Positions 3,842-37,005 of a DNA stretch of 37,061 bases are shown piece by piece. Location of the stretch: assembly GCA_002839575.1 (NCBI GenBank), contig PGYH01000024.1, positions 1 to 37,061 on the forward strand, in the 5' to 3' direction. This stretch comes from Methanomicrobiales archaeon HGW-Methanomicrobiales-6 (GTDB taxonomy: Archaea > Halobacteriota > Methanomicrobia > Methanomicrobiales > Methanoculleaceae). Both the position numbers and the translations under genes were made by a program. The notes under the pieces were generated by a model. It had not been told where the DNA came from. It ran no database searches and worked only from the letters and a program-made list of their open reading frames with translations. Numbering within the stretch: position 1 is the stretch's first letter; each line of letters opens with the position of its first letter.

Positions 3842-3847
3842 CAAACG

Positions 3848-5548
3848 GTGCCGAATTCCCCGAACAAACCCTCCTGGAGCGAAGAGGAAGCGTTAAAACC
3901 CCCGGCATCCTGTGATCTCTTTGAGCAGATGGAACTGGTTATCGGAAAAGACGGCGACCGTGACATCGCCATCGATGCCCAGGAACTGGTCACGGGCAGA
4001 ACCTGTGTCATCGCGCAGTCGGGTGCCGGGAAGAGCTGGGGCATCGCGGTCATCTGCGAGCAACTCCTGCAGGCGCGGGTAGGGTACTGCCTCATCGATA
4101 CGGAGGGAGAGTACTTCTCGCTCAGGGACCGGTTCCCTCTCCTCTGGATCGGTTCCAGTGAGGACTGCGACGTGGATATCGAGCAGGCGAACCTCCGTGA
4201 ACTGATGCAGAACGCGATCTGCTCCCGGACTGCGGTGATCTTCGACGTCTCGGAGGTCAATATGCAGGAGCGGGTGTCCTACCTCGCGGAAGTCCTCTAC
4301 GACCTTGAAAGCGAGTTAAAGCAGCCGTTCCTGCTGATTGTGGAGGAGGCCGACAAGTTCATTCCCCAGTCGGGGGAGTCCATCAAAAAGATTGAGGAGA
4401 TCTCCCGCCGGGGGCGCAAGCGCGGACTCGGCCTCTTAGTCGCGACCCAGCGGCCATCACTCGTGACAAAGAACGTTCTCTCGCAGTGCAACAGCCAGAT
4501 CCTCGGGAAGCTCTCGATCGAGAACGATTTAAAAGCGGTCAGTCTCTTCTTTCCGTCCCGGAAAGAGGCCGGAGAGCTCGCGGATCTTGAGCCCGGGGAG
4601 TTTTTCGTGATGGGCAAACTCTCGAGGGAGCATGCGACGAAGATGCGCTTTGGGGCCCGGCTCTGCGAGCACCGGGGGCTGACGCCCAAACTCATGCCCG
4701 CAGCGCCGGTCCGGCCGGCCGAATCGCCCCGGGAAGAACCGTGCGGCGGCAGTCCCCGGGAAGAGCCGGTGGTGCCGCTCGCCACTACGGATGCCGCGAA
4801 TGCCTCGAATACCGCAGGTCCCATGAATGCAGTTGTCCCGGTACTGCTCCGTGAGGAGGCGCTCGATATCGCGAAAGCCAAACGAAAACGCCGGTTCCTG
4901 ATCCTGGAGCCCGAAGAACGGATCGTCTCAGGAGAGCGGGTCTACCGGCCGCTTCACCGGGTAGAGATCCGCTACATCGGCGGGTTTATCCGGAAGGCGA
5001 CGAAAACAGCGTCGTTCGTCCTCGATGGCTGCACCGGGTGCATTGTCGAGGTGGATCGCGGCCTGAAAGTTCGGCCGGGGTTCTCGGAGCTCCTGGGGCT
5101 CGATGAGGCTGCGGTGAGGATCGTTGCCGGGCTCGCGAACGGCGGCTCGACCCTGACCGAGATCGAGGCCGACACCCACCTTCCGGCGGCCGCGGTGAAG
5201 AAGGCGATAAAGAGCCTTGCGGGGGCGAAACTGATCACGGAGATGAAGACGGTGGGCGACACGAAGGTCTACGTGCCCCTGCTTGCAGACGAGGTTCCGG
5301 CACTCTCCGCCCTCAGGCGGGGGGCGGACCTCCCGATGGAGCCGCTCCAGGAGGAGCCCCTCGAGGCGAGGGTCACCGAATCCTCCCTCCGGATCATCTT
5401 AAAAGGGCTCGAACCCACGGCGGAGATCGTTGAGTTCGATACGATCTACTACCCGGTCTACCTGATCCGGTTCGCATCGGAGCGGGGAGAACGCTCGCTC
5501 CTTCTCGACGGCTGCACGGGGAAGGAACTTCTCTTCCCGGCGTTATGA
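3848..5548 (+). CDS. HerA-like (DUF87/FtsK-HerA) ATPase with C-terminal winged helix and two DGCTG repeats
   Basis: A 566-residue protein. Residues ~30-270 are a HerA-type RecA-fold ATPase: Walker A AQSGAGKS (56-63), a CLIDTEGEY strand, Walker B LLIVEEAD (162-169) and an RKRGLGLLVATQRPS arginine/sensor stretch. A variable linker (~275-330) follows. The C-terminal part holds two related segments, each ending in LDGCTG (Asp 393 and Asp 554), on either side of a predicted winged helix (~425-480). HerA-family ATPases pump DNA or act as helicases, usually with the nuclease NurA, which is not encoded here; this looks like one of the many stand-alone archaeal relatives. The start is GTG at 3848, 6 bases after the MFS stop, without an obvious ribosome binding site; an internal ATG at residue 28 is an alternative. 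The C-terminal repeat recurs in decayed form at 5908-6055. Confidence 0.82.
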   Translation: MPNSPNKPSWSEEEALKPPASCDLFEQMELVIGKDGDRDIAIDAQELVTGRTCVIAQSGAGKSWGIAVICEQLLQARVGYCLIDTEGEYFSLRDRFPLLWIGSSEDCDVDIEQANLRELMQNAICSRTAVIFDVSEVNMQERVSYLAEVLYDLESELKQPFLLIVEEADKFIPQSGESIKKIEEISRRGRKRGLGLLVATQRPSLVTKNVLSQCNSQILGKLSIENDLKAVSLFFPSRKEAGELADLEPGEFFVMGKLSREHATKMRFGARLCEHRGLTPKLMPAAPVRPAESPREEPCGGSPREEPVVPLATTDAANASNTAGPMNAVVPVLLREEALDIAKAKRKRRFLILEPEERIVSGERVYRPLHRVEIRYIGGFIRKATKTASFVLDGCTGCIVEVDRGLKVRPGFSELLGLDEAAVRIVAGLANGGSTLTEIEADTHLPAAAVKKAIKSLAGAKLITEMKTVGDTKVYVPLLADEVPALSALRRGADLPMEPLQEEPLEARVTESSLRIILKGLEPTAEIVEFDTIYYPVYLIRFASERGERSLLLDGCTGKELLFPAL

Positions 5549-5634
5549 CCGGAGTGCTTATCCTCCCGCGTGAGTATAGGAGATCTTATGCCCTGTAGCC
5601 CACACGGGCGGTTGGGCGGAGAGGTGAAGAAGCG
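5549..5634 (+). promoter_or_regulatory. Leader/promoter segment of rubredoxin 1, repeated before rubredoxin 2
   Basis: The stretch beginning tgaccggagtgcttatc (from 5546) is repeated nearly unchanged at 6053 before the second rubredoxin. It contains a TATA-like tgcttatcc and ends with a strong gaggtgaag ribosome binding site (5621-5629) 7 bases before the ATG at 5635. Conservation of this block between copies suggests it is the working promoter. Confidence 0.5.
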
Positions 5635-5793
5635 ATGGACTCATATAAGTGTACTCTGTGCGGTTACATCTACAACCCCGCCATCGGTGATTTCGACCAT
5701 GGCGTTAAGGCCGGCACGGCCTTCGAAGACCTGCCCGATACCTGGAAGTGTCCCCGGTGTGGTGCGCCGAAGAGCCGGTTTAAGAAGATCTGA
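5635..5793 (+). CDS. Rubredoxin (copy 1)
   Basis: A 52-residue rubredoxin, the small cytosolic one-electron carrier with a single Fe bound by four cysteines. Both CxxCG knuckles are present: Cys6/Cys9 (CTLCGY) and Cys39/Cys42 (CPRCG), together with the conserved Tyr11, Tyr13, Pro15 and the DLPDTWKCP segment that packs the iron site. The length equals the family norm. The ATG at 5635 has a GGTGA ribosome binding site at 5623-5627. In anaerobic archaea rubredoxins feed oxygen- or superoxide-detoxifying enzymes (flavodiiron proteins, superoxide reductase); no such partner is adjacent. A second copy lies about 500 bases downstream. Identification is very secure; the partner is unknown. Confidence 0.95.
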
Positions 5794-5907
5794 GAGTAGT
5801 GGACACTCCCGGATCTCTACTGCTTTCTGAAGTAGGGTGAGGGCATCCCGCCCGCACGGAAGGGTTTGAGTACCTCCTCCTGATTCTCCCGGCCGACGGG
5901 GGTGCCT

Positions 5908-6055
5908 CAGTTCATCTTGGGAGAGTCGGTCTGCCGGTCGTTTCACCAGGCAGACGTCCGCTACACCGGCGTTCCTCCCCGGAAGGCAACGGAGACGGTC
6001 TTCGTCTTCCCTGATGGGCTTGCCGGCAGGAAACCCCATCCCCCTGATCACCTGA
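5908..6055 (+). pseudogene. Remnant of a HerA-like protein C-terminal repeat
   Basis: Between the two rubredoxins a fragment reads VCRSFHQADVRYTG, then RKATETVFVFPDGLAG, then TGA at 6053-6055. It aligns with RVYRPLHRVEIRYIGG and RKATKTASFVLDGCTG of the HerA-like gene (coding bases about 4935-5040), and the DNA is also clearly similar. No ATPase part remains and no start with a ribosome binding site is visible. The fragment is followed by the same promoter block as rubredoxin 1, so it looks like the 3' end of a lost paralogue that stood before rubredoxin 2. The DGCTG motif has decayed to DGLAG. The 5794-5907 stretch upstream holds nothing recognisable. Confidence 0.65.
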
Positions 6056-6142
6056 CCGGAGTACTTATCTCCCCCGGGATACACGGGTGCTGTGCCCCGG
6101 TCGACGTTGCGGCCGGTCGGGGGGCGAGGTGGTGAAGAGATG

Positions 6143-6301
6143 ATGGATTCATACCGGTGCGGACTCTGCGGCTACGTCTACAACCCCAGGGCCGGTGAGC
6201 CCGACCATGGTGTCCAGCCCCGTACGGAGTTTGGAGACCTGCCCGAGGACTGGGCATGTTCCCGGTGCGGTGCGGAGAAGAACCTGTTTCGGAAGGCGTA
6301 A
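6143..6301 (+). CDS. Rubredoxin (copy 2)
   Basis: A 52-residue rubredoxin with Cys6/Cys9 (CGLCGY) and Cys39/Cys42 (CSRCG) as iron ligands and the usual aromatic core. It is the same length as copy 1 and roughly 60 percent identical by eye. Two ATGs are adjacent (6140 and 6143); the second is chosen because it reproduces copy 1, with a GGTGA site (6131-6135) 7 bases upstream and MDSY as the first residues. The replacement of several Lys by Arg/Glu changes surface charge relative to copy 1, so the two may serve different partners (inference). A hairpin plus T-rich stretch follows the stop, consistent with a single-gene transcript. Confidence 0.95.
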   Translation: MDSYRCGLCGYVYNPRAGEPDHGVQPRTEFGDLPEDWACSRCGAEKNLFRKA

Positions 6302-6302
6302 G

Positions 6303-6343
6303 GGGGGTTCGGAGCCGGACCCCCACAACAAATCTTCTCTTTT
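6303..6343 (+). terminator. Hairpin and T-rich tail after rubredoxin 2
   Basis: The arms GGGGG (6303-6307) and CCCCC (6320-6324) with additional internal pairing form a short GC stem, followed by the pyrimidine-rich aatcttctctttt. It lies directly after the stop codon and before the convergent minus-strand operon. Confidence 0.5.
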
Positions 6344-6404
6344 AAGGGCGTGGTCGTACGAGAGCGTTATATGATGTTCTATTCTCCCGGCCGCACAACC
6401 TCCC

Positions 6405-6926
6405 TCACCCGAACCGAAAGGCCCTGAGCCCCTCCCCGCAGATCTCGCGCCCGGCGAGGTGCTCCATCTCGTGGTCGATCCCGTAGGCGGTGGAGCCTGT
6501 AAACGTCATCTCCGCGGCATCGAGGTCTTCGACCCGGATCGTCCTCTCAAGCGGGTTGACGATCATTTTAATCGCCCGGCGAGCGCCGAGCCGTACCCGG
6601 TAGGGCCGGTTTACGAGCAGCCGCGCGGGAGCGCTGCCGCACTTCTCCAGCCGGTAGACGGTCCCCTCCCGGTGCAGGAGCAGCGGGTCGACGAAAAGGA
6701 AGATCTCCTCAAGCGAGTAGCCGATCAGCCGTTCATCATCGTAGACCGTGGTCTTCTTCACCGCCGATATCGCGGTGAGCCCCTCCGCGGCGTAGCTCCA
6801 GTCGCCCCCGTAACGGAGCGAGAAGAGAAGGGGGACGAGCGCGTCGGCGGGTATTCCGAACCGCTCGGCGAGGGCGGCCTCTTGAGCGGCAAATATGAGT
6901 TCTTCCCGGATTTCGTCGGTCTCCAT
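6405..6926 (-). CDS. Divergent peptide-deformylase-like protein
   Basis: A 173-residue protein whose second half looks like peptide deformylase: a Cys in EKCGSAP (Cys96, in the place of EGCLS), an RPYRVRLGA strand, and DHEMEHLAG (His152, Glu153, His156) in the place of the catalytic HExDH. The metal ligands and general base are therefore present. The N-terminal GxGxAAxQ motif is not: the corresponding region reads EGLTAISAVKKT, without the Gln that stabilises the transition state. Archaeal translation does not use formyl-Met, so the substrate is unlikely to be a nascent chain; function unknown. It is last of a five-gene minus-strand cluster, 32 bases after modC, and has its own TATA-like agtatttatcc near 6955, about 29 bases before the ATG, suggesting a leaderless internal promoter. 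Confidence 0.6.
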   Translation of the reverse strand: METDEIREELIFAAQEAALAERFGIPADALVPLLFSLRYGGDWSYAAEGLTAISAVKKTTVYDDERLIGYSLEEIFLFVDPLLLHREGTVYRLEKCGSAPARLLVNRPYRVRLGARRAIKMIVNPLERTIRVEDLDAAEMTFTGSTAYGIDHEMEHLAGREICGEGLRAFRFG

Positions 6927-25097: not shown

Positions 25098-27035
25098 ATG
25101 GATTCGACGACATCAACAGAAATTCCCAACATCGAGCTCACGAATGATGAACTGGAGGATATGGACGTCCTTTCAGGTCTCGAGCTGAGCGCATCTTCAG
25201 ATATCGACGTACCCCCGAACCTTATCGACCAGGTTATCGGCCAGGAACACGCCGTCGAGGTGATCCGGAAGGCCGCGGTCCAGCGCAGGCATGTGATGAT
25301 GATCGGCACCCCCGGAACCGGCAAATCGATGCTGGCGAAGGCGATGGCCGAGCTCCTGCCCAAAGAGGAACTGCAGGACATCCTGGTCTATCCGAACCCT
25401 GAGGATAACAATAACCCTATCATCAGGACCGTGCCGGCGAGCCGCGGCAAACAGATCGTCAACGCGCACAAGGTGGAGGCGAGGAAGAAGATTCAGATGC
25501 GGAGCACCCTCATTATGCTCCTCATCATCGGCATCATCGGCTACGCGATCATCACCTATCAGTGGCTCATGGGTATCATCGCCGCCGCGTTCATCTTCAT
25601 GGCGCTGAAGTATTCGACGCCTCGCGAGGAGACGATGGTCCCGAAGCTCCTGATCTCCCACGACCCGAACACCCCTGCACCCTTCGTCGATGGCACCGGC
25701 TCGCACGCGGGCGCCCTGCTCGGCGACGTTCGGCACGACCCCTTCCAGAGCGGCGGCCTCGAGACCCCGTCTCACGACCGTGTCGAGGGCGGGGCCATCC
25801 ACCGGGCGCATGGGGGGGTGCTCTTCATAGACGAGATCAACACCCTCACCCCACACTCCCAGCAGAACCTGCTGACCGCGCTCCAGGAAGGCACCTTCCC
25901 GATCACCGGCCAGAGCGAGCGCTCGAGCGGCGCGATGGTCCGGACCGAACCGGTCCCCTGCCGGTTCGTGATGATCGCAGCAGGCAACATCGATGCCATC
26001 CAGGGGATGCACCCGGCGCTCCGGTCGCGTATCCGGGGATACGGCTACGAGGTTTACATGCGGGAGACAATGGAGGACACCCCGGAGAACCGGAAGAAGT
26101 TCCTCCGGTTCATCGCGCAGGAGGTCAAGAACGACGGGAAGATCCCCCACTTCGACCGCGGCGCCATGCTCGAGGTTCTTCGCGAAGCCCGGCGCCGTTC
26201 GAACCGGAAGGGCCACCTGACCCTGAAACTCCGTGACATGGGCGGGCTCATCCGGGTGGCGGGCGACCTCGCCCGGCAGGAAGGTGCGGAGTTCACCTCC
26301 GTGAAACATGTCCTCGCCGCAAAGTCGGCATCCCGCTCGATTGAGGACCAGATCTCCGACGAGTATATCCGGCGGAGCCGCGACTACGACATCACCGTCG
26401 TTGAGGGCACCAGGATCGGGCGGGTGAACGGGCTTGCCGTGATGGGGAGCGACTCCGGCTCGGTGCTCCCGGTGATGGCCGAGGTGACCCCGAGCCAGGG
26501 AGCGACCGGCACGGTCATCGCGACCGGAATGCTCAAGGAGATCGCCAAGGAGTCGATCACGAACGTCAGCGCCCTGATCAAGAAGTTCACTGGTAAGGAT
26601 GTCAGGAACATGGACATCCACGTTCAGTTCATCGGCACCTACGGCGGCGTCGAGGGGGACTCCGCGTCCGTGACCGTGGCAACAGCGGTGATCAGCGCCA
26701 TCGAGAATATCCCGGTGCGCCAGGACGTCGCGATGACCGGGTCGCTCTCGGTCCGGGGCGACGTCCTTCCCATCGGCGGGGTAACCTACAAGATCGAGGC
26801 GGCGGCAAAAGCCGGGATCAAGAAGGTGATCATCCCGCGGTCGAACCTGGACGACGTCCTCATCGAGGACCATTACCGCACGATGGTCGAGGTGGTGCCG
26901 GTCGACCACATCGAGGAGGTCCTCCAGAACGCACTCGTGCCCGAGAACCGCGAAGGGTTCCTCTCGAAGCTCCGGAAGATGGCAGTCACCCCGACCACCA
27001 TCTTCGACCCGAACGCCGGGCGCTCCGTGGTCTGA
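25098..27035 (+). CDS. lonB: Membrane-anchored archaeal Lon protease
   Basis: A 645-residue ATP-dependent protease. AAA+ module: Walker A GTPGTGKS (70-77), Walker [11 protein letters not shown], and an arginine-finger region [12 protein letters not shown]. Within the ATPase, residues ~134-174 contain two hydrophobic helices ([19 protein letters not shown] and [12 protein letters not shown]) that anchor the hexamer in the membrane, the archaeal LonB hallmark. The C-terminal protease domain carries the Ser/Lys dyad: Ser522 in GGVEGDSAS and Lys565 in GGVTYKIEA. It degrades unfolded and regulatory proteins at the inner membrane face. A gaggt ribosome binding site precedes the ATG. The tldD gene follows after 6 bases. 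Confidence 0.97.
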
Positions 27036-27041
27036 TAGCCT

Positions 27042-28370
27042 ATGGCTGATGTAAGATACTACGACATCAGGTGCGTACGGGGCGAGACCACCCTTGTCGA
27101 TATCGACAACGGGGTGATCGAGTCCGCAGGCACCTCATTTTTTGACAAAGCCGTGATCCGGGTGCTCGGGCCGAAAGGCTGGGGTATCCTCACCCGCGAC
27201 CACGTCGATATCGATTCGAAGCGTGAGGTAAATACCCTCGTCGAAGCGGCGGCACGCCTCGCTGCGGTCACACAGGACCACCTCGACCTTGCCGATGCGC
27301 CGCGGGGCGTGCTCCCCGTCCCGCCCCTCGGGGAAGACCCCCGGGACGTCGACCTCGAGGAGAAGACCCGGCTGCTTGCCGGGATCGAAGCTGCGGCACG
27401 GGTTGCCGGGGTGGGAAACACCCGCGCCCGCTACACCGAGGGGATCGATGCGGTCCGGTTCCTGGATTCGAGTGAAAACGAGTACTCTTACGAGGCCGTC
27501 CGGTCCGGGTTCTCGGTCGTCGCCATCGCGTCCAGAAACGGCGTGATGCAGATGGGGAGCGAACGCGACCACATCACCACCGGGTTCAACCTCCGGGGCA
27601 AACAGGACCTCGGCCGGAAGGCAGGCGAGGTCGCGGTCTCCCTGCTCGACGCGAAGCTCCCGAAAGGCGGGACGAAACGGGCCGTGCTCGACCCGGAGCT
27701 CGCCGGCGTCTTCACCCACGAGGCGGTCGGCCACGCGAGCGAGGGTGACCTCGTCCGCGAGGGTGCATCGGTACTCGGGGGCAGGATCGGCGAGCGGATC
27801 GGGTGCGAGGGGCTGGTCATCGTGGACGACCCGACGCTTCATGAGTTCGGGTTCATCCCCGTGGACGCCGAGGGTGTCGCGGTGCAGCGAACCGAGATCA
27901 TCCGCGACGGCATCCTCTCGTCGTTCCTTCACAACCGTGAGACGCTCGCAGCGGTCGGGAACGGAATCCCTGGACACGCTCGCTCCGAGCACGGGGCGCC
28001 GCCGATCGTCCGGATGAGCAACACCTTCATCGAGAATGGCAATGCGATGTACGATGAGATTCTCTCCGAGTGCAAGGACGGCATCCTGCTGATCGGATCA
28101 AGGGGGGGCCAGGTCGACCCCGGCCGCGGCGTCTTCCAGTTCAACGCGGAGTACGGCTACCTGATTGAGGGCGGCGAGACGACCGATATGGTCAGGGACG
28201 TCTCGCTCTCGGGTGAGATCCTTTCGACGCTCCACAACATCGCTCTCGTCGGGAACGACCGGAAGATGAGCCCGGGCTACTGCGGCAAAGGTGGACAGAG
28301 CGTGCCGGTCAGCGACGGCGCGCCCCATCTCCTGCTCGAGAACGCAACCATCGGGGGGCGGGGCGAATGA
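27042..28370 (+). CDS. tldD: TldD-family metalloprotease subunit
   Basis: A 442-residue zinc peptidase subunit with the family HExxxH motif HEAVGH (226-231) inside VFTHEAVGHASEGD, a GRIGERIGCEGLVIVDDPTL segment, and LLIGSRGGQVDPGRGVFQFNAEYGYLIEGGE toward the end. TldD forms a heterodimeric protease with TldE that in bacteria matures ribosomally made peptides (microcin B17) and degrades unfolded peptides. It starts 6 bases after the lonB stop and overlaps tldE by 4 bases (ATGA), so all three are likely one transcript. Confidence 0.93.
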   Translation: MADVRYYDIRCVRGETTLVDIDNGVIESAGTSFFDKAVIRVLGPKGWGILTRDHVDIDSKREVNTLVEAAARLAAVTQDHLDLADAPRGVLPVPPLGEDPRDVDLEEKTRLLAGIEAAARVAGVGNTRARYTEGIDAVRFLDSSENEYSYEAVRSGFSVVAIASRNGVMQMGSERDHITTGFNLRGKQDLGRKAGEVAVSLLDAKLPKGGTKRAVLDPELAGVFTHEAVGHASEGDLVREGASVLGGRIGERIGCEGLVIVDDPTLHEFGFIPVDAEGVAVQRTEIIRDGILSSFLHNRETLAAVGNGIPGHARSEHGAPPIVRMSNTFIENGNAMYDEILSECKDGILLIGSRGGQVDPGRGVFQFNAEYGYLIEGGETTDMVRDVSLSGEILSTLHNIALVGNDRKMSPGYCGKGGQSVPVSDGAPHLLLENATIGGRGE

Positions 28371-29659
28371 ACGGCGAAGACCTGATCGAGAGGATTCTCC
28401 GGGAGGGCGAGCGCCGGGCCGACGAGGTCGAGGTCTTCTACGCCCGGGGAGAGAGCGTCAGCACCGAGATCAAGAAGGGCATCATCGGCACCGCCGAGGA
28501 GTCGGAGGCCTGGAGCATGGCTATCCGGACCGTCAAAGACGGTCGGATAGGGTTCTCGAGCACCGGCGATCCCGACCGGTGGAAGGAGTGCCTGGATGCG
28601 GCGCTCGCGAGCGGTGGACTTGCCACCCCACAGCAGTGGGGAGGATTCCCGAAACCGGCAAATCTAACAAGCACCGCATCCTCATCGGACGGCGACCTGG
28701 TCGTCGCGGTGGAGGATGCGGCGGGGATGGTCGCGGACCTCCTTTCCGGTGCCGCGGAGCACCCGGTGGAGGTCGTCGGCGGGGGCGCGAACCTCGCCCG
28801 GTCGTACCTCATGGTCGCAAACACGAGCGGTGTCCTCTACGGCATGAACCGGACGGTGGCGGCGGTATCCCTCGAAGCAATCCGGGAGCAGTCCACGGGC
28901 TATGAATTCGATGCCTCCTCGTTCCGTGCCGATATTGACGCCCGGTCGGTCGGGGAACAGGCGGCCTCGCTTGCCGCACGCTCTCTATCGGGGCGGGATA
29001 TCGCGACCGGGCGTTACGACGTCGTCCTCTCCCCGGTTGCGGCCGCAAGCATTCTTGGCCATGTTCTCCTCCCGGCCCTCTCCGGGCGGAACGTGAAAGC
29101 CGGCCGATCGTTCCTCGCGGACAAACTCGGCGAGCAAGTCTTTGACGGATCGCTCTCCGTTTACGACGACCCGTTTGCTCCCGGCCTCGGGAGCACCACC
29201 TGGGACGCGGAGGGGATCCCGACCCGGCGCCTGGTCTTCGTGGAGCAGGGGGTGCTTGGCCGGTTCGCCTACGACCTCAAGACCGGCTACCGCTACGGCG
29301 AGGGAAGCACGGGGAGCGCCGTCCGCTCCGGGGGCGAGCCGCCCGGGATCGGCGTACACAACCTCTTCGTCGACGGCCCGCGGGCGAAAGAGCCCGGCGA
29401 CGAGCGGGCGGTCTGGATCCACGACGTCGTGGGCGCCCATACCGCGAACCCGTTCTCCGGCGACTTCTCGGTGGAGATCTCCAATCCCTTCTGGATGGAG
29501 GGTGGGGATCTCGTCGAGCCCATCCGTACGGCGATGCTCTCCGGGAACGTCTTTGAGATGCTTCGGGAGATCGGGGGGCTCGGAAAAGATACAAGACGCG
29601 TCGGACGGCTGACGATTCCATCAATACGGTTAAATAACCAGCAGATCATTGGTAAATAG
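28367..29659 (+). CDS. tldE: TldE/PmbA-family protease partner subunit
   Basis: A 430-residue non-catalytic partner of TldD: DEVEVFYARGESVSTEIKKG at the start, GYEFDASSFRADID..., DVVLSPVAAASILGHVLLPALSG, and the closing FSVEISNPFWMEGGDLVEPIRTAMLSGN. It lacks the HExxxH of TldD, as expected for this subunit. The pair occurs widely in archaea without an identified substrate. The ATG overlaps the TldD stop (ATGA). The stop at 29657-29659 directly abuts the BofA gene, so coupling continues. Confidence 0.93.
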   Translation: MNGEDLIERILREGERRADEVEVFYARGESVSTEIKKGIIGTAEESEAWSMAIRTVKDGRIGFSSTGDPDRWKECLDAALASGGLATPQQWGGFPKPANLTSTASSSDGDLVVAVEDAAGMVADLLSGAAEHPVEVVGGGANLARSYLMVANTSGVLYGMNRTVAAVSLEAIREQSTGYEFDASSFRADIDARSVGEQAASLAARSLSGRDIATGRYDVVLSPVAAASILGHVLLPALSGRNVKAGRSFLADKLGEQVFDGSLSVYDDPFAPGLGSTTWDAEGIPTRRLVFVEQGVLGRFAYDLKTGYRYGEGSTGSAVRSGGEPPGIGVHNLFVDGPRAKEPGDERAVWIHDVVGAHTANPFSGDFSVEISNPFWMEGGDLVEPIRTAMLSGNVFEMLREIGGLGKDTRRVGRLTIPSIRLNNQQIIGK

Positions 29660-29923
29660 ATGATGGAAGAGATCCTTGCCATCCTTCTCGCGGTCGCGAT
29701 AGCCGCGGCGCTCTACTACCTCATGAAGAAGGCCATGACGCTCGTCATCAACGCCATCGCCGGCCTCATCACGCTCTGGCTCCTGAATTACTTCGACGTT
29801 CTCAGCTGGTTCGGTGCTCCCGACATCCAGATCAACCTGGTGACGATCCTCATCTGCGCCCTCGGAGGACTTCCGGGTGCCCTGGTTCTGGTCCTGCTTC
29901 ACCTTGTGGGGATTGCGATCTGA
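29660..29923 (+). CDS. BofA-family membrane protein
   Basis: An 87-residue membrane protein with about three hydrophobic segments (ILAILLAVAIAAALYYL, VINAIAGLITLWLLNYF, VTILICALGGLPGALVLVLLHLVGIAI). The pattern, including the VINAIAGL stretch and GGLPGALVLVLLHLVGI ending, matches the sigma-K processing inhibitor BofA family. In Bacillus BofA blocks the intramembrane protease SpoIVFB; archaeal members have no known target. Its position directly after lonB-tldD-tldE, with no gap, suggests it controls a membrane protease here too (inference). Two consecutive ATGs begin the gene. Confidence 0.8.
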   Translation: MMEEILAILLAVAIAAALYYLMKKAMTLVINAIAGLITLWLLNYFDVLSWFGAPDIQINLVTILICALGGLPGALVLVLLHLVGIAI

Positions 29924-30165: not shown

Positions 30166-30792
30166 ATGCCTCTGCCCCGGGCGGGTGCGCTTCTTGCAGC
30201 CGTCATCCTGGCCCTGTATGCGGGTGTTGCTGCAGTGGTGCTGACCGCGCCTTATGGAGATCCGTTCAATGTCATAGCGCGCCTTCTCGCTCTGTGGGGT
30301 TTCCTGGCTCTCGCCATTGCAGCTATTATGACACCGTTCCTCCGGGAGATCATGAAGGTCTTCGGCAGGCCGTTTCTCGCGGTGCACCATACCTTCGCCG
30401 CCATCGGGCTTCTCCTCCCTACGCTGCACCCGGTGACCCTTGCCATAGGCGCGATGAATCCTGCCATATTCATCCCCATCTTCTCTCCCTGGGGGAGGTT
30501 CTGGGCACTCGCAGGCCGGCCCGCGCTCTACCTCCTCTACATCGCCTTCGCCGCCGTGGTGCTCCGGAAGTATATCCCGAAGTACTGGCGGTGGGCTCAC
30601 GGCCTGATGTATGTCGTCCTCCTCTTTGCCGTCGTGCACGGAAACCTGATCGGAACCGATTTCCAGGAGCCGATCATATGGGTGCTTTTCAATGCGCTCT
30701 TCGCCCTTGTCGTTGCGGCATTCGTCCTCAAGCGGTGGCAGAGGATGCGGAAGAAGGGGGCACCCGGTCGGAGCGACATTTCGAGGGCGTAA
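30166..30792 (+). CDS. Ferric-reductase-like transmembrane haem protein
   Basis: A 208-residue membrane protein with about six helices, a short N-terminus and a basic C-terminal tail. His74/His75, His88, His145 and His158 lie in neighbouring helices; the 14- and 13-residue spacings (74/88 and 145/158) are those of the bis-haem ferric reductase/YedZ superfamily. Such proteins move electrons across the membrane via b-haems. No flavin/NAD domain is attached, so a separate partner is needed. A TATA-like cttatccc at 30136-30143 lies about 27 bases before the ATG, implying a leaderless mRNA. The partner and acceptor are unknown; the adjacent genes give no hint. Confidence 0.75.
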   Translation: MPLPRAGALLAAVILALYAGVAAVVLTAPYGDPFNVIARLLALWGFLALAIAAIMTPFLREIMKVFGRPFLAVHHTFAAIGLLLPTLHPVTLAIGAMNPAIFIPIFSPWGRFWALAGRPALYLLYIAFAAVVLRKYIPKYWRWAHGLMYVVLLFAVVHGNLIGTDFQEPIIWVLFNALFALVVAAFVLKRWQRMRKKGAPGRSDISRA

Positions 30793-30874: not shown

Positions 30875-31570
30875 TTAGAACAAACTTGCCTCCGAGTAAA
30901 CCATTATCTGGTCCTGGAGTATCTCAAACGGTTTGATCTCCCGTGAATGGGCCGAACGACGCATCTTCACGACCTCAAGGGCCAGGTGTACTTCGGTGAG
31001 TCCTGGAGAGCGGATATAGCGAAGGAGGATCACCGTATCCGCCAGATACTCAACGAGGCCGTACTTGCTCCCGTCCGGATTTGCCACGTCAGTCTCGCTC
31101 GTCAGCGCCAGGGTGCAGTCCTCATCCCGCATCACTTCAATGAGCCTGAACATCTCCCGCCGCCGGTCGGACGCGTCCTCGAAGAGTCCCTCGAAGAGGG
31201 ATATCGGGTCGATGATCACCCTGGAGGCTCCGGTGCTCTTGATGAGGGCGGGGAGCTCGCTCTTGATGCTGCTGATTGCGAGATTAAAGTCGGTTGGGTC
31301 CAGCTTGAGCAGGTAGAACCGGTCGCTGAACGCCTCCGTATCCCAGCCTTTCTGTGCCATGGTGGCACGGAGGAGTTCCTCGCGTTCTTCGAGACTGATA
31401 TAGATCACTTTCTCCCCCTGGCGGAGTCCCTCGTATGCGAACTGGAGGCCAAACGTCGTTTTCCCGGTGCCATAGGTGCCGACGAGCGCGCAGATGCTCC
31501 TCTCAAGAAGTCCCCCTAAGAGCATCGCATCCAGCCCTTCGACTCCGAACTTCACCCGACGCATCGTCAT
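30875..31570 (-). CDS. KaiC/RAD55-like RecA-superfamily ATPase (intact P-loop)
   Basis: A 231-residue single-domain KaiC-like ATPase: FGVEGLDAMLLGGL, Walker A GTYGTGKT (31-38), the catalytic Glu pair in YISLEE (61-62), Walker B VIID (118-121), and the closing VHLALEVVKMRRSAHSREIKPFEI segment typical of the family. It resembles the archaellum ATPase FlaH/ArlH in size and build. The start ATG at 31570 overlaps the stop of the companion ATPase gene (ATGA), so the two are co-translated and probably form a pair or mixed ring. It lies opposite the GspE/TadC genes, suggesting a role with that machine. It could alternatively be a general signalling ATPase. Confidence 0.82.
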   Translation of the reverse strand: MTMRRVKFGVEGLDAMLLGGLLERSICALVGTYGTGKTTFGLQFAYEGLRQGEKVIYISLEEREELLRATMAQKGWDTEAFSDRFYLLKLDPTDFNLAISSIKSELPALIKSTGASRVIIDPISLFEGLFEDASDRRREMFRLIEVMRDEDCTLALTSETDVANPDGSKYGLVEYLADTVILLRYIRSPGLTEVHLALEVVKMRRSAHSREIKPFEILQDQIMVYSEASLF

Positions 31571-32403
31571 ACTACCACCCGTATGTTGCGCACTTCAAAC
31601 CCGCCTGATGCTGAAATCGAGAGCGCGAACTTCACCAGATCCTTATCCTCGAGGCGAGGCATCACGCCCCGGAACTTCTCAAAGTGCATAACCCGTTGCC
31701 GGCGCTGTGCACCCCCCTCCTCCCAGCGGAAGAAGATCGTGGCGTCGACGCAGTCGACGATCTCAAGTTCCCATGACTGATCCAGGATCCCGGAGGTGAG
31801 CAGAAGATAGATCGTGGTGTTCCGGCGTTTTGCTGTTCGCTGCAGCCCGCGCAGGAAGGCGATAAATGCATGCCGCTGATCCCCTTCCATCAGTGACGGT
31901 GCAATATCGGTCAGCGAATCCAGGACGATCAGGCTGTTCTTCGCGCATCCACCAACCACCCGGGCGAGTTCCGCAAGGATGTCATCGTTCTCCTTGCGTT
32001 GCTTCTTCTGCAGACGTTCGACGACGCTTCCTTCCCCGTACCAGTCCGGAGGGACGATGCTGGCATCGAAGTAGAGTTCCGAGAGGTCGTAAAAGACTAT
32101 CTCCTCCCCAAGTCGATCGTAGAGGTCCGGATTGAATGAAAGCGCTATCTCTTTCAGGATATCCTCCCGCATACGGGTGAACGTTACGTACGAGATGCTC
32201 TCCGGGAGCAGAAGGTGCTCCCCGCCCGCCCCGCTCCGCTTCATCAGGGAGAGCTGTATGAGCGAGGTCTGCACAAATTCGACGTTGCCGGCGCCATGCT
32301 CTCCGAGGAGCAGCACCGCTGACCCCGGTGGGATACCCCCTTCCAGTACGGGATCGAGGGAGTTGATGCCCGTCGGCATCCGTAACTCGAGGCGATCGTG
32401 CAT
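31567..32403 (-). CDS. KaiC-like ATPase homologue with degenerate P-loop
   Basis: A 278-residue RecA-fold protein: RMPTGINSLDPVLEGGIPPGSAVLLLG followed by GEHGAGNV (34-41), where the Walker A Lys and Thr/Ser are replaced by Asn and Val. Walker B (SLIVLDSLTD) is retained, and the end (QRVMHFEKFRGVMPRLEDKDLVKF) fits the family. It probably binds nucleotide poorly or not at all and may be a regulatory partner of the intact ATPase encoded next. The ATG at 32403 is preferred over the longer frame to 32547: a TATA-like box (32440-32431, minus strand) lies about 32 bases upstream, giving a nearly leaderless mRNA. Confidence 0.78.
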   Translation of the reverse strand: MHDRLELRMPTGINSLDPVLEGGIPPGSAVLLLGEHGAGNVEFVQTSLIQLSLMKRSGAGGEHLLLPESISYVTFTRMREDILKEIALSFNPDLYDRLGEEIVFYDLSELYFDASIVPPDWYGEGSVVERLQKKQRKENDDILAELARVVGGCAKNSLIVLDSLTDIAPSLMEGDQRHAFIAFLRGLQRTAKRRNTTIYLLLTSGILDQSWELEIVDCVDATIFFRWEEGGAQRRQRVMHFEKFRGVMPRLEDKDLVKFALSISASGGFEVRNIRVVV

Positions 32404-32504
32404 AGATACACATCGTATATAGGGAGAACGATTAAAATATTCTGGTTCTGTGCGGCATTCATGGATTTCGGAGGTCCAATTGGCATCCCTCGTTAAAAAA
32501 GCAG

Positions 32505-32514
32505 ATTTTATAAG
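32505..32514 (+). promoter_or_regulatory. TATA box for the gspE/tadC operon
   Basis: attttataag on the plus strand predicts transcription from about 32538. This rules out translation from the open frame at 32450 and leaves a leader of about 140 bases before the gspE ATG, containing the small open frame at 32607. Confidence 0.6.
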
Positions 32515-32606
32515 CAAGTCCTCCACATCTCCTATTGACTCAAGCAACTCCCGGGAATTGCGCTTCGTCTTCGAATCCCGGGTTAAAAACGTTGGTCACG
32601 GTGAAT

Positions 32607-32684
32607 ATGAGAGATATCGTCAGGGATCCCGTGATGCAGGTGGTGTGCACGACGGGCACGTTTCCTGTGCGGGTGCTGCAATGA
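32607..32684 (+). CDS. Possible 25-residue leader peptide coupled to gspE
   Basis: An open frame beginning ATG at 32607, just after GGTGA (32600-32604), encodes MRDIVRDPVMQVVCTTGTFP and five more residues and stops at TGA 32682-32684, overlapping the gspE ATG (ATGA). The overlap and the nearby ribosome binding site suggest translational coupling. No homology is recognised; it may be coincidental. Confidence 0.3.
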   Translation: MRDIVRDPVMQVVCTTGTFPVRVLQ

Positions 32685-34327
32685 CACCGGGCAGCGATCT
32701 GCCGGCAGATCGTAACCCTCCCGCCGCGAAGCGATCAGGCCTGCCCGGTTTTCTAGGCCGTCTTCTCCTCTCCTGGAAGGACGGCGCAGCTGCAGGTGAG
32801 TACGACCCCGCAATGCATGGCCCCCTGGTGGAAGCGAAGGTCCCTCCGGGCTACGAGGAACTTGATCGCTACTGGATCGCCGAAGGCCTCTCGCTCGCTA
32901 TAATCACCCGAAATGTGCAGACGAACCAGCCAGAGTACCTTCTCTTCGAGCCTGTGCTCTCGGATTTCGAGTACGAACTCCTGGAACGGCTCTTTGAAGA
33001 CCTCCGCGACACCCTGATCCTTGAAGATCACGACCTGACATCCGATCGCCGGAAGGTTCTCGCCAGGAAGATGCAGGAGTTGCTCGTGGAGTACGGCCTC
33101 ACACTCACCGATGCCTCGATCTTTCGGCTCCGTTATTACCTCGGGCGCAACTTCCTCGGTTGGTCGCGCATCGATGCGCTGATAAACGATCCCCTGATCG
33201 AAGATATCTCCTGTGATGGGACAAACGTCCCCCTTTTCCTGTATCACCGGGAGCACCAGAACATCAAGACAAACATCCTCTTTGACGAGGAGGCTTTAAA
33301 CTCATTTGCGATCACGCTCGCCCAGCGTTCGGGCAAGCATGTCTCTATAGGAAGTCCACTCGTGGACGCGACCCTTCCTGATGGCTCGAGGCTGCAACTG
33401 ACGTTCGGCAACGAAGTCACTACCCGGGGCACCTCGTTCACGATCAGGAAGTTCCGGGAGGAGCCGTTCACGCCCGTCGAACTGATGGAGACGAACACCT
33501 TCGACGTCGACCAGCTCGTCTACTTCTGGATAGCGATCGAGAACAACAAAAGCCTGCTCTTTATCGGCGGCACCGCGTCGGGGAAGACTACATCCCTCAA
33601 CGCTGTCGCCCTTTTCATCCCGCCGCTCTCAAAGATCGTCTCCATCGAGGACACCCGTGAGATCACGCTCTACCATGAGAACTGGGTTGCGACCGTCACG
33701 CGCGAGACGGTATCCGAAGGGCCCGGCACCAATTCCATCGGGATGTTTGATCTCCTCAAGGCTGCCATGCGACAGCGTCCTGAGTACATCCTGGTCGGCG
33801 AGGTTCGGGGAAGCGAGGCCCAAACCCTCTTCCAGGCGATGAGCACCGGGCATACGACGTTCTCCACCATGCATGCCGGCGGGGTCGACGCGGCGATCCA
33901 CCGTCTGGAGAATGAACCGCTCAACGTGCCAAGAAGCATGCTCCAGGCACTGGACATCATATCTGTCCAGTCGCTCACTCACCGGGGGCGCGACCATGTC
34001 AGGCGGTGCCGGGAGATCGTCGAGCTTGCCGGGATCGACTCGCTTACCGGCAACATCCAGGTGAACACGGTCTATGAGTACAACCCCGTGCCCGACACCT
34101 TCACCTTCTCGGGGCGTTCCCGGATCTTCACTGAGATCATGGCGTATCGCGGGTGGAGCCGGGTCCAGTTGGAGGAAGAGTTGCGGATCCGGCAAAGCGT
34201 CCTTCTCGCGATGCGTGAGCAGGGTATCAGGGACTACAGGGCGGTCGCCCGCATCATTCAGGCCTTCACTACCGAGCGGGATCGGGTGCTTGCCTCCCTC
34301 GACGACCTCGGCAGGTTGATCCGGTGA
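32681..34327 (+). CDS. Type II/IV secretion-system ATPase, GspE/VirB11 superfamily (archaeal type)
   Basis: A 548-residue secretion ATPase. The N-terminal domain (~1-200) is followed by the motor: Walker A GGTASGKTTS (~296-305), an Asp box with IVSIEDTREI, Walker B around RPEYILVGEVRGSEA, and a His box TGHTTFSTMHAGG. These are the motifs of FlaI/ArlI and archaeal PilB-like hexamers that drive type IV filament assembly or secretion. The ATG at 32681 is chosen because the upstream part of the open frame lies in the promoter and leader. The stop overlaps the next gene (TGATG at 34325-34329), so it is coupled to the TadC-like platform protein. It is larger and distinct from archaellum ArlI; no pilin gene is in the window. 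Confidence 0.93.
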   Translation: MTPGSDLPADRNPPAAKRSGLPGFLGRLLLSWKDGAAAGEYDPAMHGPLVEAKVPPGYEELDRYWIAEGLSLAIITRNVQTNQPEYLLFEPVLSDFEYELLERLFEDLRDTLILEDHDLTSDRRKVLARKMQELLVEYGLTLTDASIFRLRYYLGRNFLGWSRIDALINDPLIEDISCDGTNVPLFLYHREHQNIKTNILFDEEALNSFAITLAQRSGKHVSIGSPLVDATLPDGSRLQLTFGNEVTTRGTSFTIRKFREEPFTPVELMETNTFDVDQLVYFWIAIENNKSLLFIGGTASGKTTSLNAVALFIPPLSKIVSIEDTREITLYHENWVATVTRETVSEGPGTNSIGMFDLLKAAMRQRPEYILVGEVRGSEAQTLFQAMSTGHTTFSTMHAGGVDAAIHRLENEPLNVPRSMLQALDIISVQSLTHRGRDHVRRCREIVELAGIDSLTGNIQVNTVYEYNPVPDTFTFSGRSRIFTEIMAYRGWSRVQLEEELRIRQSVLLAMREQGIRDYRAVARIIQAFTTERDRVLASLDDLGRLIR

Positions 34328-36264
34328 TGCTGCCCGGCCGTGCACACGCTTACCGCCTCGTCCGTCGGCTGGTGCAGCGCGACCCCATACGCTACCGGCA
34401 TCTCCGTGAAGATCTCGTTGCGGCGAACCTGGGAGTCACCCTTGACGGCTACCTCCTGCGGGTGTTCACCGTCTCCGGGCTCTTCGGCACCTTCTGGGCG
34501 GTTGCGGCGTTCCTCGCAATGCGGCTTTTTGTTCTCCCACAGGTGGGCACCAGGGTTTACAATGTCTTCTCCCTCCACCTGCCGGCGTCCATGCTGACGG
34601 ATCCGACACTCGTTATTCTGCAGGTTGTTGCAAGCATATTCATCTTCGTCCTTGCTGCCTACATGATCCATGCCTTCTTCCTGTGGTACCCGTCTCTGGT
34701 GAAGAAGAACCGGGCGATCCGGATTAACCTCCTGATCCACCACGCCGTCGCCTACATGTATGCCATGCGCCAGGGTGGCGCGGAAATTATGGCGGTCTTC
34801 CGCTCAATAAGCGCAAACCCAGCAGTCTACGGGGAAGCAGCCCTGGAGTTCCGGCGTGCCGTCCGGGACGCCGACTACTTCGGCTACGATGTGCTCACGG
34901 CGCTTCGGCACCTGCAGGAGACAACTCCGTCAGATAAACTGCGTGAGTTCGTACAGGATCTTGTCTCCGTGGTCGAGAGCGGGGGTGACCTGCTCGCCTT
35001 TCTCGATACCCGGGTACGCACCTACCAGGAGGATGCCCGGTTTGAGCAGATGACCTTCCTCTCCACACTCCAGCTGGTGGCCGAAGCCTATGTGACGCTC
35101 TTCGTCGCCGGACCACTCTTCCTCATCATTGTCATGATCGTTATGGGTTTCGTGAGCAGCACGCCCGTTATGCAACTCTCGGTCGTCATCTACCTCCTGG
35201 TCCCGGTTGGCTCGCTCTTCTTTATCCTCTTCGTCGACGCAATCTCGATCAAGACCGAGGGGATAGAGCGATGCATCGAGGAACGCTGGCTTCACGAGTT
35301 TGGCGACGTCCGGGTTGAGGAACGGCCCGGCGACGAACCGCTCATCCGGCAGCTTGCGCACTACGACCGGATCCGCAACCTTCGAACCTTTCTGCGCCAC
35401 CCACTTCAAGCATTTCTTATCGAACCGAACCGGACGTTCTATGTGACGGTGCCGGTTGCGCTTGCTTATGTCATCCTCGCCGTCCTCAGTACCCCGGCCT
35501 ACTCCGATATCGAGGTGATGATCGACGTCATCGATGACCACCTCATCATAGCGTTGCTGTTCGTCCTTGCCCCTTTCGGCATATCCCACCTGTTCTGGCA
35601 GAAGAGGGCAATGGCGATCGAGGCTTCTATCCCTGAGTTCCTGAACCGTCTTTCCGGGATAAATCAGGTGGGTCTGACGCTCGCGCAGGCGATAACGATT
35701 CTCGTGAAGGCTGATCTCGGGGTGTTATCCTACGAGATCAAAAAGATCAAGCGCGACATCGAGTGGGGTGCGACTGTCCGGGATGCGCTTGTACGGTTCG
35801 AGGAACGGGTACAGACCCCCACCATTGCCCGGGCCGTCACCCTGATCACGACAGCGGGCCAGATGACCGGAAGCATCGGCGATGTTCTGGACATCGCGGC
35901 CCGCGACGTCGCGATGTCGGAGACCCTCAAACGCGAGAGGCGGGGCGAGATGTTCATCTACGTCATCATCGTCTACCTGGTGTGCACCGTCTTTATATTT
36001 GTCGTGGCGGTTATCGACGCCCAGTTCCTCTCCGTGCTGGCCACGGTCGACGTTACGACGACAGGGTACATGCCTGGCTCGATGTCGTTTGGGGACACTG
36101 CCATCGTGACGTTCAAGCGTCTCCTCTTCCACGCTTGCCTCATCCAGGCACTCTTCTCCGGCCTGATCGCCGGGGAGATGGGAGAGGGCTCGATCCGGGC
36201 GGGGGTCAAACACGCGGCTGTGATGGTCTTTATTGCGTTTGTGATCTTCACCATCCTTCTGTAG
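34327..36264 (+). CDS. TadC/FlaJ-like type IV filament platform membrane protein
   Basis: A 645-residue membrane protein with about nine predicted helices (around residues 40-65, 95-120, 250-275, 285-305, 370-390, 405-425, 550-575, 600-620, 625-645) and two cytoplasmic GspF-type domains (around 130-240 and 440-545), each with a helical core: HHAVAYMYAMRQGGAEIMAV and SIPEFLNRLSGINQVGLTLA. The duplicated domain layout and nine helices match FlaJ/ArlJ and archaeal TadC proteins that form the base of the filament. ATG at 34327 overlaps the gspE stop. It would anchor the ATPase at the membrane; pilins and prepilin peptidase must be encoded elsewhere. Confidence 0.9.
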   Translation: MLPGRAHAYRLVRRLVQRDPIRYRHLREDLVAANLGVTLDGYLLRVFTVSGLFGTFWAVAAFLAMRLFVLPQVGTRVYNVFSLHLPASMLTDPTLVILQVVASIFIFVLAAYMIHAFFLWYPSLVKKNRAIRINLLIHHAVAYMYAMRQGGAEIMAVFRSISANPAVYGEAALEFRRAVRDADYFGYDVLTALRHLQETTPSDKLREFVQDLVSVVESGGDLLAFLDTRVRTYQEDARFEQMTFLSTLQLVAEAYVTLFVAGPLFLIIVMIVMGFVSSTPVMQLSVVIYLLVPVGSLFFILFVDAISIKTEGIERCIEERWLHEFGDVRVEERPGDEPLIRQLAHYDRIRNLRTFLRHPLQAFLIEPNRTFYVTVPVALAYVILAVLSTPAYSDIEVMIDVIDDHLIIALLFVLAPFGISHLFWQKRAMAIEASIPEFLNRLSGINQVGLTLAQAITILVKADLGVLSYEIKKIKRDIEWGATVRDALVRFEERVQTPTIARAVTLITTAGQMTGSIGDVLDIAARDVAMSETLKRERRGEMFIYVIIVYLVCTVFIFVVAVIDAQFLSVLATVDVTTTGYMPGSMSFGDTAIVTFKRLLFHACLIQALFSGLIAGEMGEGSIRAGVKHAAVMVFIAFVIFTILL

Positions 36265-36332: not shown

Positions 36333-36485
36333 ATGTGCACAGTCGGTGGACCAGTCGATATCGAGTTCAATGAGCGCGTGAAGGGCACAAACTACCGCTG
36401 CAAAGAATGCGGCGAGAAGTTCAAGGGTATCGGCAAGCGGCCCATGTGCCCGAGCTGCCAGTCGGAAGATGTCGAAGAAGTCTGA
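36333..36485 (+). CDS. Zinc-ribbon microprotein
   Basis: A 50-residue protein with two CxxC knuckles, CKECGEKF (Cys23/Cys26) and CPSC (Cys39/Cys42), 12 residues apart, enough for one zinc ribbon, plus an acidic tail EDVEEV. A GGTGATG ribosome binding site lies at 36322-36328 and a TATA-like ttttatcc at 36293-36300. The final 17 bases overlap the next gene, so translation is coupled. Such single ribbons usually bind nucleic acid or act as protein adaptors; the function here is unknown. Confidence 0.8.
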   Translation: MCTVGGPVDIEFNERVKGTNYRCKECGEKFKGIGKRPMCPSCQSEDVEEV

Positions 36486-37005
36486 AGGCGGCGCTTCGGG
36501 GTTTTCCTCTGCCGGGTCGGGTGTTGCGACCATACCCCTCGGCGATGAACCCCTCCTTATCCAGGGAGAACGTTCTTTTCTACTTGTTGCAAAAGCCAGC
36601 TGCCGGTTTACACTTTGCATCGAGACCCCTGACGACGAGTACTGCCAGGGGGTCGACCCTGACGATCTGGTTGCCGTCTCCATGCCGGAAGGCGGCCCCA
36701 TCGAGCAGGCACGCATGATGCTTGAGCTGGTCCGGCGCTACCACATCCCGCTCGTAGTCCTTCCTAAAGATCACCCCGGCTCGAAACGGTTATCGATGGT
36801 CGTCTCGGTCGCCCCGGAGATCCTCTTCGCCTGCGATATCCGCCGGGGAACCCACCCCGAGCAGCACCTGCTCTGTTCATCGGCGGAGTTTTCGGGGCTC
36901 TCGCTTGCCGGGGTTCCCGGGGGCATTACGATGAAAAATCTTCCTCTCGGTGTGAAAATAATACATCTGGATGTGGAAAAAACCTCAGCGGACAAACAAC
37001 AATAA
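36469..37005 (+). CDS. Protein of unknown function coupled to the zinc-ribbon gene
   Basis: A 178-residue soluble protein I do not recognise. A disordered Ser/Gly-rich start (MSKKSEGGASGFSSAGSG) precedes a compact alpha-beta region: IPLGDEPLLIQGERSFLLVAKASCRFTL, DPDDLVAVSMPEGG, a helix EQARMMLELVRRYHIPLVVLPKDHPGSKRLSMVVSV, and CDIRRGTHPEQHLLC. The PLVVLPKDHPGSKR segment could contribute to a phosphate- or nucleotide-binding site, but no known motif is met. ATG 36469 overlaps the upstream gene by 17 bases. The neighbourhood suggests a two-gene operon with the zinc ribbon. Confidence 0.7.
   Translation: MSKKSEGGASGFSSAGSGVATIPLGDEPLLIQGERSFLLVAKASCRFTLCIETPDDEYCQGVDPDDLVAVSMPEGGPIEQARMMLELVRRYHIPLVVLPKDHPGSKRLSMVVSVAPEILFACDIRRGTHPEQHLLCSSAEFSGLSLAGVPGGITMKNLPLGVKIIHLDVEKTSADKQQ

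Follow-up and report, generated by a model that had tools for sequence, protein, structure and literature searches.

A KaiC-type ATPase and a degenerate partner divergent from a GspE-TadC pair in Methanoculleus: a conserved four-gene unit and candidate motor of an archaeal type IV filament

What do two KaiC-like proteins do beside the genes for a secretion ATPase and its membrane platform? This question is raised by the window, the whole stretch of 37,061 nucleotides analysed here, which is the entire contig C55 of a draft genome (88% complete) of the genus Methanoculleus. The initial annotation had described adjacent, divergently read genes for one KaiC-like protein with an intact and one with a degenerate P-loop, and for a GspE motor and a TadC platform, and all of these features are confirmed from the sequence (Table 1). 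The KaiC1-deg pair, whose genes overlap at 31567-31570 as ATGA on the minus strand, is divergent from the GspE-TadC pair, in which the stop of GspE overlaps the start of TadC as TGATG. The probable start of GspE is the ATG at 32681, and the open frame reaches upstream to a GTG at 32450. Across the order the gap between deg and GspE has a median of 351 bp, taken as the distance between protein matches. A scan of the deg/GspE intergenic region, limited to bacterial-type promoters and terminators, found none.

Table 1. Positions of the four genes and the region between the two pairs, and of three pilin genes on another contig of the same genome.
Feature	Contig	Position	Strand	Description
KaiC1, single-domain KaiC-type ATPase	C55	30875..31570	-	231 aa; TIGR03880, PF06745; Walker A and catalytic carboxylates intact
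deg, degenerate KaiC-family pseudo-ATPase	C55	31567..32403 (from likely ATG)	-	278 aa; PF06745; extra YF..S.VP..WY segment
deg/GspE divergent intergenic region	C55	32404..32680	.	between the two read-apart gene pairs
GspE/PilB3-type secretion ATPase (motor)	C55	32681..34327	+	PF00437, PF23989
TadC/PilC-type membrane platform	C55	34327..36264	+	645 aa; two T2SSF domains (PF00482)
r7	C65 (L207)	5910-6818		DUF7289, 60 bits
r6	C65 (L207)	4553-5902		PF07790, 53.5 bits
r5	C65 (L207)	2782-4524		PF07790, 39.2 bits, and PKD

KaiC1 passes the curated cut-off of TIGR03880 (KaiC_arch_3; 302.5 bits, cut-off 249.45), on which its Methanocella homologue scores 357.7 bits, and it matches PF06745 with 175.6 bits (1e-51). 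Its Walker A motif, GTYGTGKT, and its SLEE carboxylates are intact; K[ST] of Walker A is kept in 128/142 KaiC1 sequences, most of which also carry EE, DE or DD. The predicted model of KaiC1 is closest to the CI domain of KaiC (TM 0.81-0.87 by query length), and in the structure search it matches the designed KaiC 8zn5 with 278 bits. KaiC1 therefore folds and scores as a KaiC domain; however, unlike cyanobacterial KaiC with its CI and CII domains, it is a single-domain protein, and KaiA and KaiB are absent nearby. It might be that the separate deg protein fills the role of KaiC's second domain. In the genus g20 the Walker lysine of KaiC1 is replaced by R in 9/9 cases and the EE pair is also gone in those seen, so the system does not always depend on KaiC1 hydrolysing ATP. 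Two Methanocella loci (L117, 6485-7925; L118, 11513-12986) have an extra KaiC of ~290-307 aa and a protein of 180-188 aa beside the pair.

The match of deg to PF06745 is weak but real (35 bits, cut-off 26.6). Its Walker A motif, GEHGAGNV, has neither the Lys nor the Ser/Thr, the Walker B Asp is retained and the EE pair is missing, so that deg does not have the functional P-loop of the KaiC family, although its predicted model (pLDDT 83) shows a KaiC/FlaH-like fold; a structure search with this model did not separate KaiC from FlaH. The Walker A lysine is gone from 149 of 150 deg sequences and kept in one, some genomes being counted twice in this set after retrieval by two routes, and the alignment reveals that the motif YF..S.VP..WY is conserved and specific to deg. 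What appeared in the initial annotation as a degenerate subunit is thus a conserved pseudo-ATPase. In haloarchaea, at 13 loci, a deg homologue of 278 aa without the P-loop lysine is found by itself, far from GspE and with no KaiC1 directly beside it.

The other two genes encode the parts expected of an archaeal type IV filament, namely a T2SSE ATPase with an adjacent TadC-type platform. GspE matches T2SSE (PF00437, 115 bits) and PilB3_C (PF23989, 32 bits, cut-off 27), and TadC matches PF00482 with 105 bits over two stretches. A crude hydropathy scan of TadC gives several overlapping transmembrane segments, for which nine helices are a plausible count. The nearest solved structure to GspE is 2OAP, the GspE of A. 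fulgidus (636 bits, versus 352 for FlaI), and in the GspE tree the module GspE forms a clade of its own (100/100), far from FlaI. A FlaI-like assignment of GspE by NCBIfam was considered and rejected, since its 379 bits lie below the cut-off of 550 and the control scores (409 for the other pilus ATPase of the genus, 743 for a true FlaI) mark the match as unspecific; by score and by its separate clade, GspE is not an orthologue of FlaI/ArlI. The genome also carries a second motor, of the split-TadC type.

The four genes are one evolutionary unit. Across 40 family genomes TadC (called at identity >50%), KaiC1 and deg are jointly present or jointly absent, and 150 Methanomicrobiales genomes divide into 97 with deg and the module GspE, three with deg only, which are fragmented MAGs, none with GspE only and 50 with neither. 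The module GspE was called here at a line of 50% identity that was chosen after the other pilus ATPase had been seen to peak at 48%, and the line is backed by the GspE tree. Wherever deg and GspE are linked within 5 kb they are divergent (88/88). Non-adjacent copies occur in nine of the 97 genomes, two with the genes on separate contigs and seven in genus g20, where two single-contig genomes have deg and GspE 594 kb and 731 kb apart and the GspE copies fall inside the module clade (100/100). Conservation of the arrangement in related genomes, proposed in the initial annotation as the check to make, is therefore found. Throughout Methanomicrobiales the surroundings read Prs-LonB-TldD-TldE-BofA-[module]-c5-AhaHIKECFA, and in module-negative genomes the order Prs-LonB-TldD-TldE-BofA-c5-AhaH is intact with exactly the four genes gone. 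The KaiC1-deg/GspE-TadC divergon is found again, among unrelated neighbours, in Methanocella, Methanoperedens, ANME-1 (Methanophagales) and others. Its retention throughout the order and its recurrence in other orders, where the neighbouring genes are unrelated, place the arrangement far outside what chance would give. Among 80 named loci, which were collected with deg patterns and are not a random sample, GspE lies beside deg in 71; of the other nine, five end <400 b from deg, and L268 and L290 are truly without it. In methanogens and ANME archaea, then, the pair is not mainly found beside unrelated genes, the outcome that would have counted against the initial proposal; yet pairs without linked GspE exist, four loci having the KaiC pair with no adjacent GspE, and in haloarchaea only deg is seen.

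The initial annotation had suggested that the KaiC-like pair is the ArlH-equivalent module of a different filament. This is only partly supported: the ArlH-ArlI-ArlJ set likewise combines a KaiC-family protein, a secretion ATPase and a platform, but neither KaiC1 nor deg is an ArlH orthologue. On the ArlH profile the two score 28.8 and 35.8 bits against a cut-off of 215, and in the tree KaiC1 (86/95), deg (100/100) and ArlH (100/100) are separate clades. The AU test gives p 0.44 for a constraint that places deg together with ArlH and so decides neither for nor against that grouping, and in profile comparison deg is nearer to KaiC1 (95%) than to ArlH (81%). The module differs from ArlH-ArlI-ArlJ also in having two KaiC-like proteins, one catalytically intact and one dead, and a GspE outside FlaI, and no ArlCDE or ArlX was found in the module loci read. 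ArlH itself binds ATP and autophosphorylates, its unphosphorylated form binds ArlI, and its function is described as largely elusive (PMC8978795). It could be argued that the four genes are instead an accessory module of the archaellum, with the KaiC pair replacing or assisting ArlH. For this speak the fold that deg shares with FlaH and its slightly better score on the NCBIfam FlaH/ArlH model (37.5 bits) than on KaiC models (28.5 bits). However, the same genome has its own ArlH (270 bits), encoded at C64 together with a FlaI of 743 bits and a FlaJ of 759 bits, the module GspE is remote from FlaI in the tree, and either of module and ArlH can be present alone: ArlH in module-negative Methanoculleus, the module in g20 genomes. 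As GspE is far from FlaI and the unit and ArlH occur independently, the system is not the archaellum; the accessory reading is largely refuted by this independent occurrence, and we regard it as extremely improbable.

If the motor is not that of the archaellum, which pilins does it assemble? The initial annotation had noted that the window holds no pilin and had proposed a search for orphan class III prepilins. Elsewhere they are linked to the module. In Methanocella, and likewise in f18 and f24, the genes after TadC encode one PF07790 and one DUF7289-type pilin (36.8, 38.3 and 45.4 bits for PF07790, cut-off 25.2; 51, 43 and 42 bits for DUF7289). Methanoperedens has a single DUF7289-like gene after TadC, weak by Pfam (16.5 bits in L281) and called from blast similarity and a class III N-terminus. 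ANME-2 loci have one to three DUF7289-like pilins, in some cases with a PF07790 pilin, after KaiC1 in the same direction, seven loci having several of them after the KaiC pair with GspE divergent; TadC was not found near the ANME-2 loci. In g20 a pilin-like gene ('THFSGD') is divergent to GspE and occupies the place of the KaiC pair, and the Methanomicrobiales MAG locus L321 brings together KaiC1-deg/GspE-TadC-DUF7289-Pilin_N at one site. For the DUF7289 family we found no published function.

In Methanoculleus the candidates are r5, r6 and r7 of locus L207 (Table 1), which are homologous to the linked pilins (r7 at 26-32% identity; r6 at 31-34% to Methanocella pilins). Reading the site through its flanking genes r8 and r4 in 30 family genomes shows the pilins in each of the 15 readable genomes that have the module and an intact cluster in none of the 15 module-negative ones, of which 14 have r8 adjoining r4 and one, G009, has a remnant. 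Along a tree of eleven flanking proteins the module and L207 change together in 7/7 independent pairs (sign test p 0.016); the association over 29 genomes, uncorrected for the tree, gives a Fisher value of 1.3e-8. This co-change is the strongest evidence that the L207 pilins belong to the module motor, and from it we infer that they reach that motor in Methanoculleus. Prepilins with an archaeal type IV N-terminus are thus tied to the motor by linkage in Methanocella, Methanoperedens, ANME-2, f18, f24 and L321, and by co-loss in Methanoculleus. Together with the distance of GspE from FlaI, these linked or co-lost pilins uphold the proposal that the locus belongs to a type IV filament distinct from the archaellum.

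Three further observations concern these pilins. In the module-negative Methanoculleus G009 (L235, 1851-4103) the cluster is partly deleted: r7 is cut to 95 aa with its N-terminus beside an r6 remnant, and r5 is open, an apparent stage of decay. The C-terminal adhesive-like domains of r5, r6 and their relatives (L207, 2782-5902) vary greatly in size, up to a protein of 1348 aa in L214. DUF7289 genes in general were rejected as markers of the module, since a universal DUF7289 gene (C44 type) is present in nearly all genomes and only the L207-type locus tracks.

Taken together, we consider it probable, at roughly 0.6, that the four genes encode the motor of a PilB3/GspE-type archaeal type IV filament, in both its cytoplasmic and its membrane parts, with its pilins encoded in trans and the KaiC pair dedicated to it as a switch. 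GspE would be the assembly ATPase and TadC the platform, and in Methanoculleus the pilins supplied in trans would be two PF07790 proteins with large C-terminal domains and one of the DUF7289 type. A short pseudopilus that secretes proteins in a type II-like manner, rather than a surface filament, seems improbable to us: the motor is of the GspE family and the pilins have large C-terminal PKD, DUF7305 and adhesive-like domains, but those pilins are of archaeal type IV families (PF07790, DUF7289), no linked secreted cargo was found, and the archaeal GspE-TadC pairs examined to date make pili (PMC4858521). The parts resemble those of the euryarchaeal clade 2 or PilB3-PilC3 pili, as presented in Makarova et al. 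2016 and for Haloferax adhesion pili, in that GspE carries PilB3_C and is paired with TadC, the pilins are often in trans, and a PilA-type PF07790 pilin is accompanied by a larger all-beta minor pilin; the likeness is one of parts, and the dedicated divergent pair of KaiC1 and pseudo-KaiC is a difference.

Within such a motor the most likely role of KaiC1-deg, judged by analogy with ArlH, would be that of an ATP-driven switch acting on GspE. KaiC1 and deg, dedicated to the GspE-TadC motor, would assemble into a ring, either mixed or stacked. In one nucleotide or phosphorylation state this ring would hold GspE and favour the assembly of filaments, and in the other it would let GspE go, as ArlH does with ArlI; the nucleotide cycle would come from KaiC1, and deg would offer the surface for docking. 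The pair could instead be a signalling or timing regulator that acts at a distance on the expression or activity of pilus genes, with GspE-TadC as its downstream target and the pair outside the motor complex. Its genes are indeed divergent from GspE-TadC and outside that operon, some lineages have the pair without linked GspE, KaiC families are proposed as regulators of type IV pili by Makarova et al. 2016 (PMC4858521), and in haloarchaea the KaiC homologue CirA influences both motility and shape, probably by way of transcription (PMC13286277). However, the ANME-2 pilin genes are co-directional right after KaiC1, the pair is lost together with motor and pilins or not at all, as would suit a dedicated part, and no adjacent output domain or response regulator was seen in the Methanomicrobiales loci read, so that we hold regulation at a distance to be unlikely, though the strongest of the alternatives. 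Because pairs without adjacent GspE exist and haloarchaeal deg stands alone, away from GspE, the KaiC pair may have another role or more than one target.

The initial annotation's word "undescribed" was too strong. One sentence of Makarova et al. 2016 (PMC4858521) states that the KaiC families arCOG01172 and arCOG01173 are possibly co-transcribed with VirB11/TadC operons in Methanomicrobia, which, from the wording of that passage, is very probably the same neighbourhood, and the same source notes that some motors use pilins in trans. The main text of that study describes no degenerate partner, gain/loss unit, pilin link or presence in ANME archaea. What the present analysis adds is the degenerate partner, the exact extent of the unit and a pilin locus lost along with it. 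We tentatively propose, at somewhat less than even odds, that an active KaiC and an obligate pseudo-KaiC together serve as a switch built into a type IV filament motor that is widespread among methanogens and ANME archaea. If this is true, archaeal filament motors have recruited KaiC-type rings at least twice, as ArlH and as KaiC1-deg, and the second recruitment puts catalysis on one subunit and docking on another. With a catalytic and a dead subunit on separate chains, the role of KaiC-like proteins on archaeal filament motors becomes testable. Co-loss also ties orphan DUF7289 pilins to a motor, and the system is placed in ANME-1, ANME-2 and Methanoperedens, archaea for which surface appendages are important in contact with partners.

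Finally, the genes next to the module deserve mention. The gene c5 (36469-37005), which follows TadC, was considered as a fifth part and rejected, because genomes that have lost the four genes still carry it beside the ATP synthase operon; it encodes ~150-200 aa with an invariant RGTHP and no Pfam match, and in most Methanomicrobiales it immediately precedes the A-type ATP synthase genes, of which AhaH comes first. On the other side, the block at 25098-29923 (LonB protease, TldD, TldE and a BofA-like membrane protein) adjoins the module and is kept across the order. Between the BofA-like gene and KaiC1, 30166-30792 is a variable insertion spot, occupied in seven loci by a membrane protein with a weak ferric-reductase match and elsewhere by unrelated genes.
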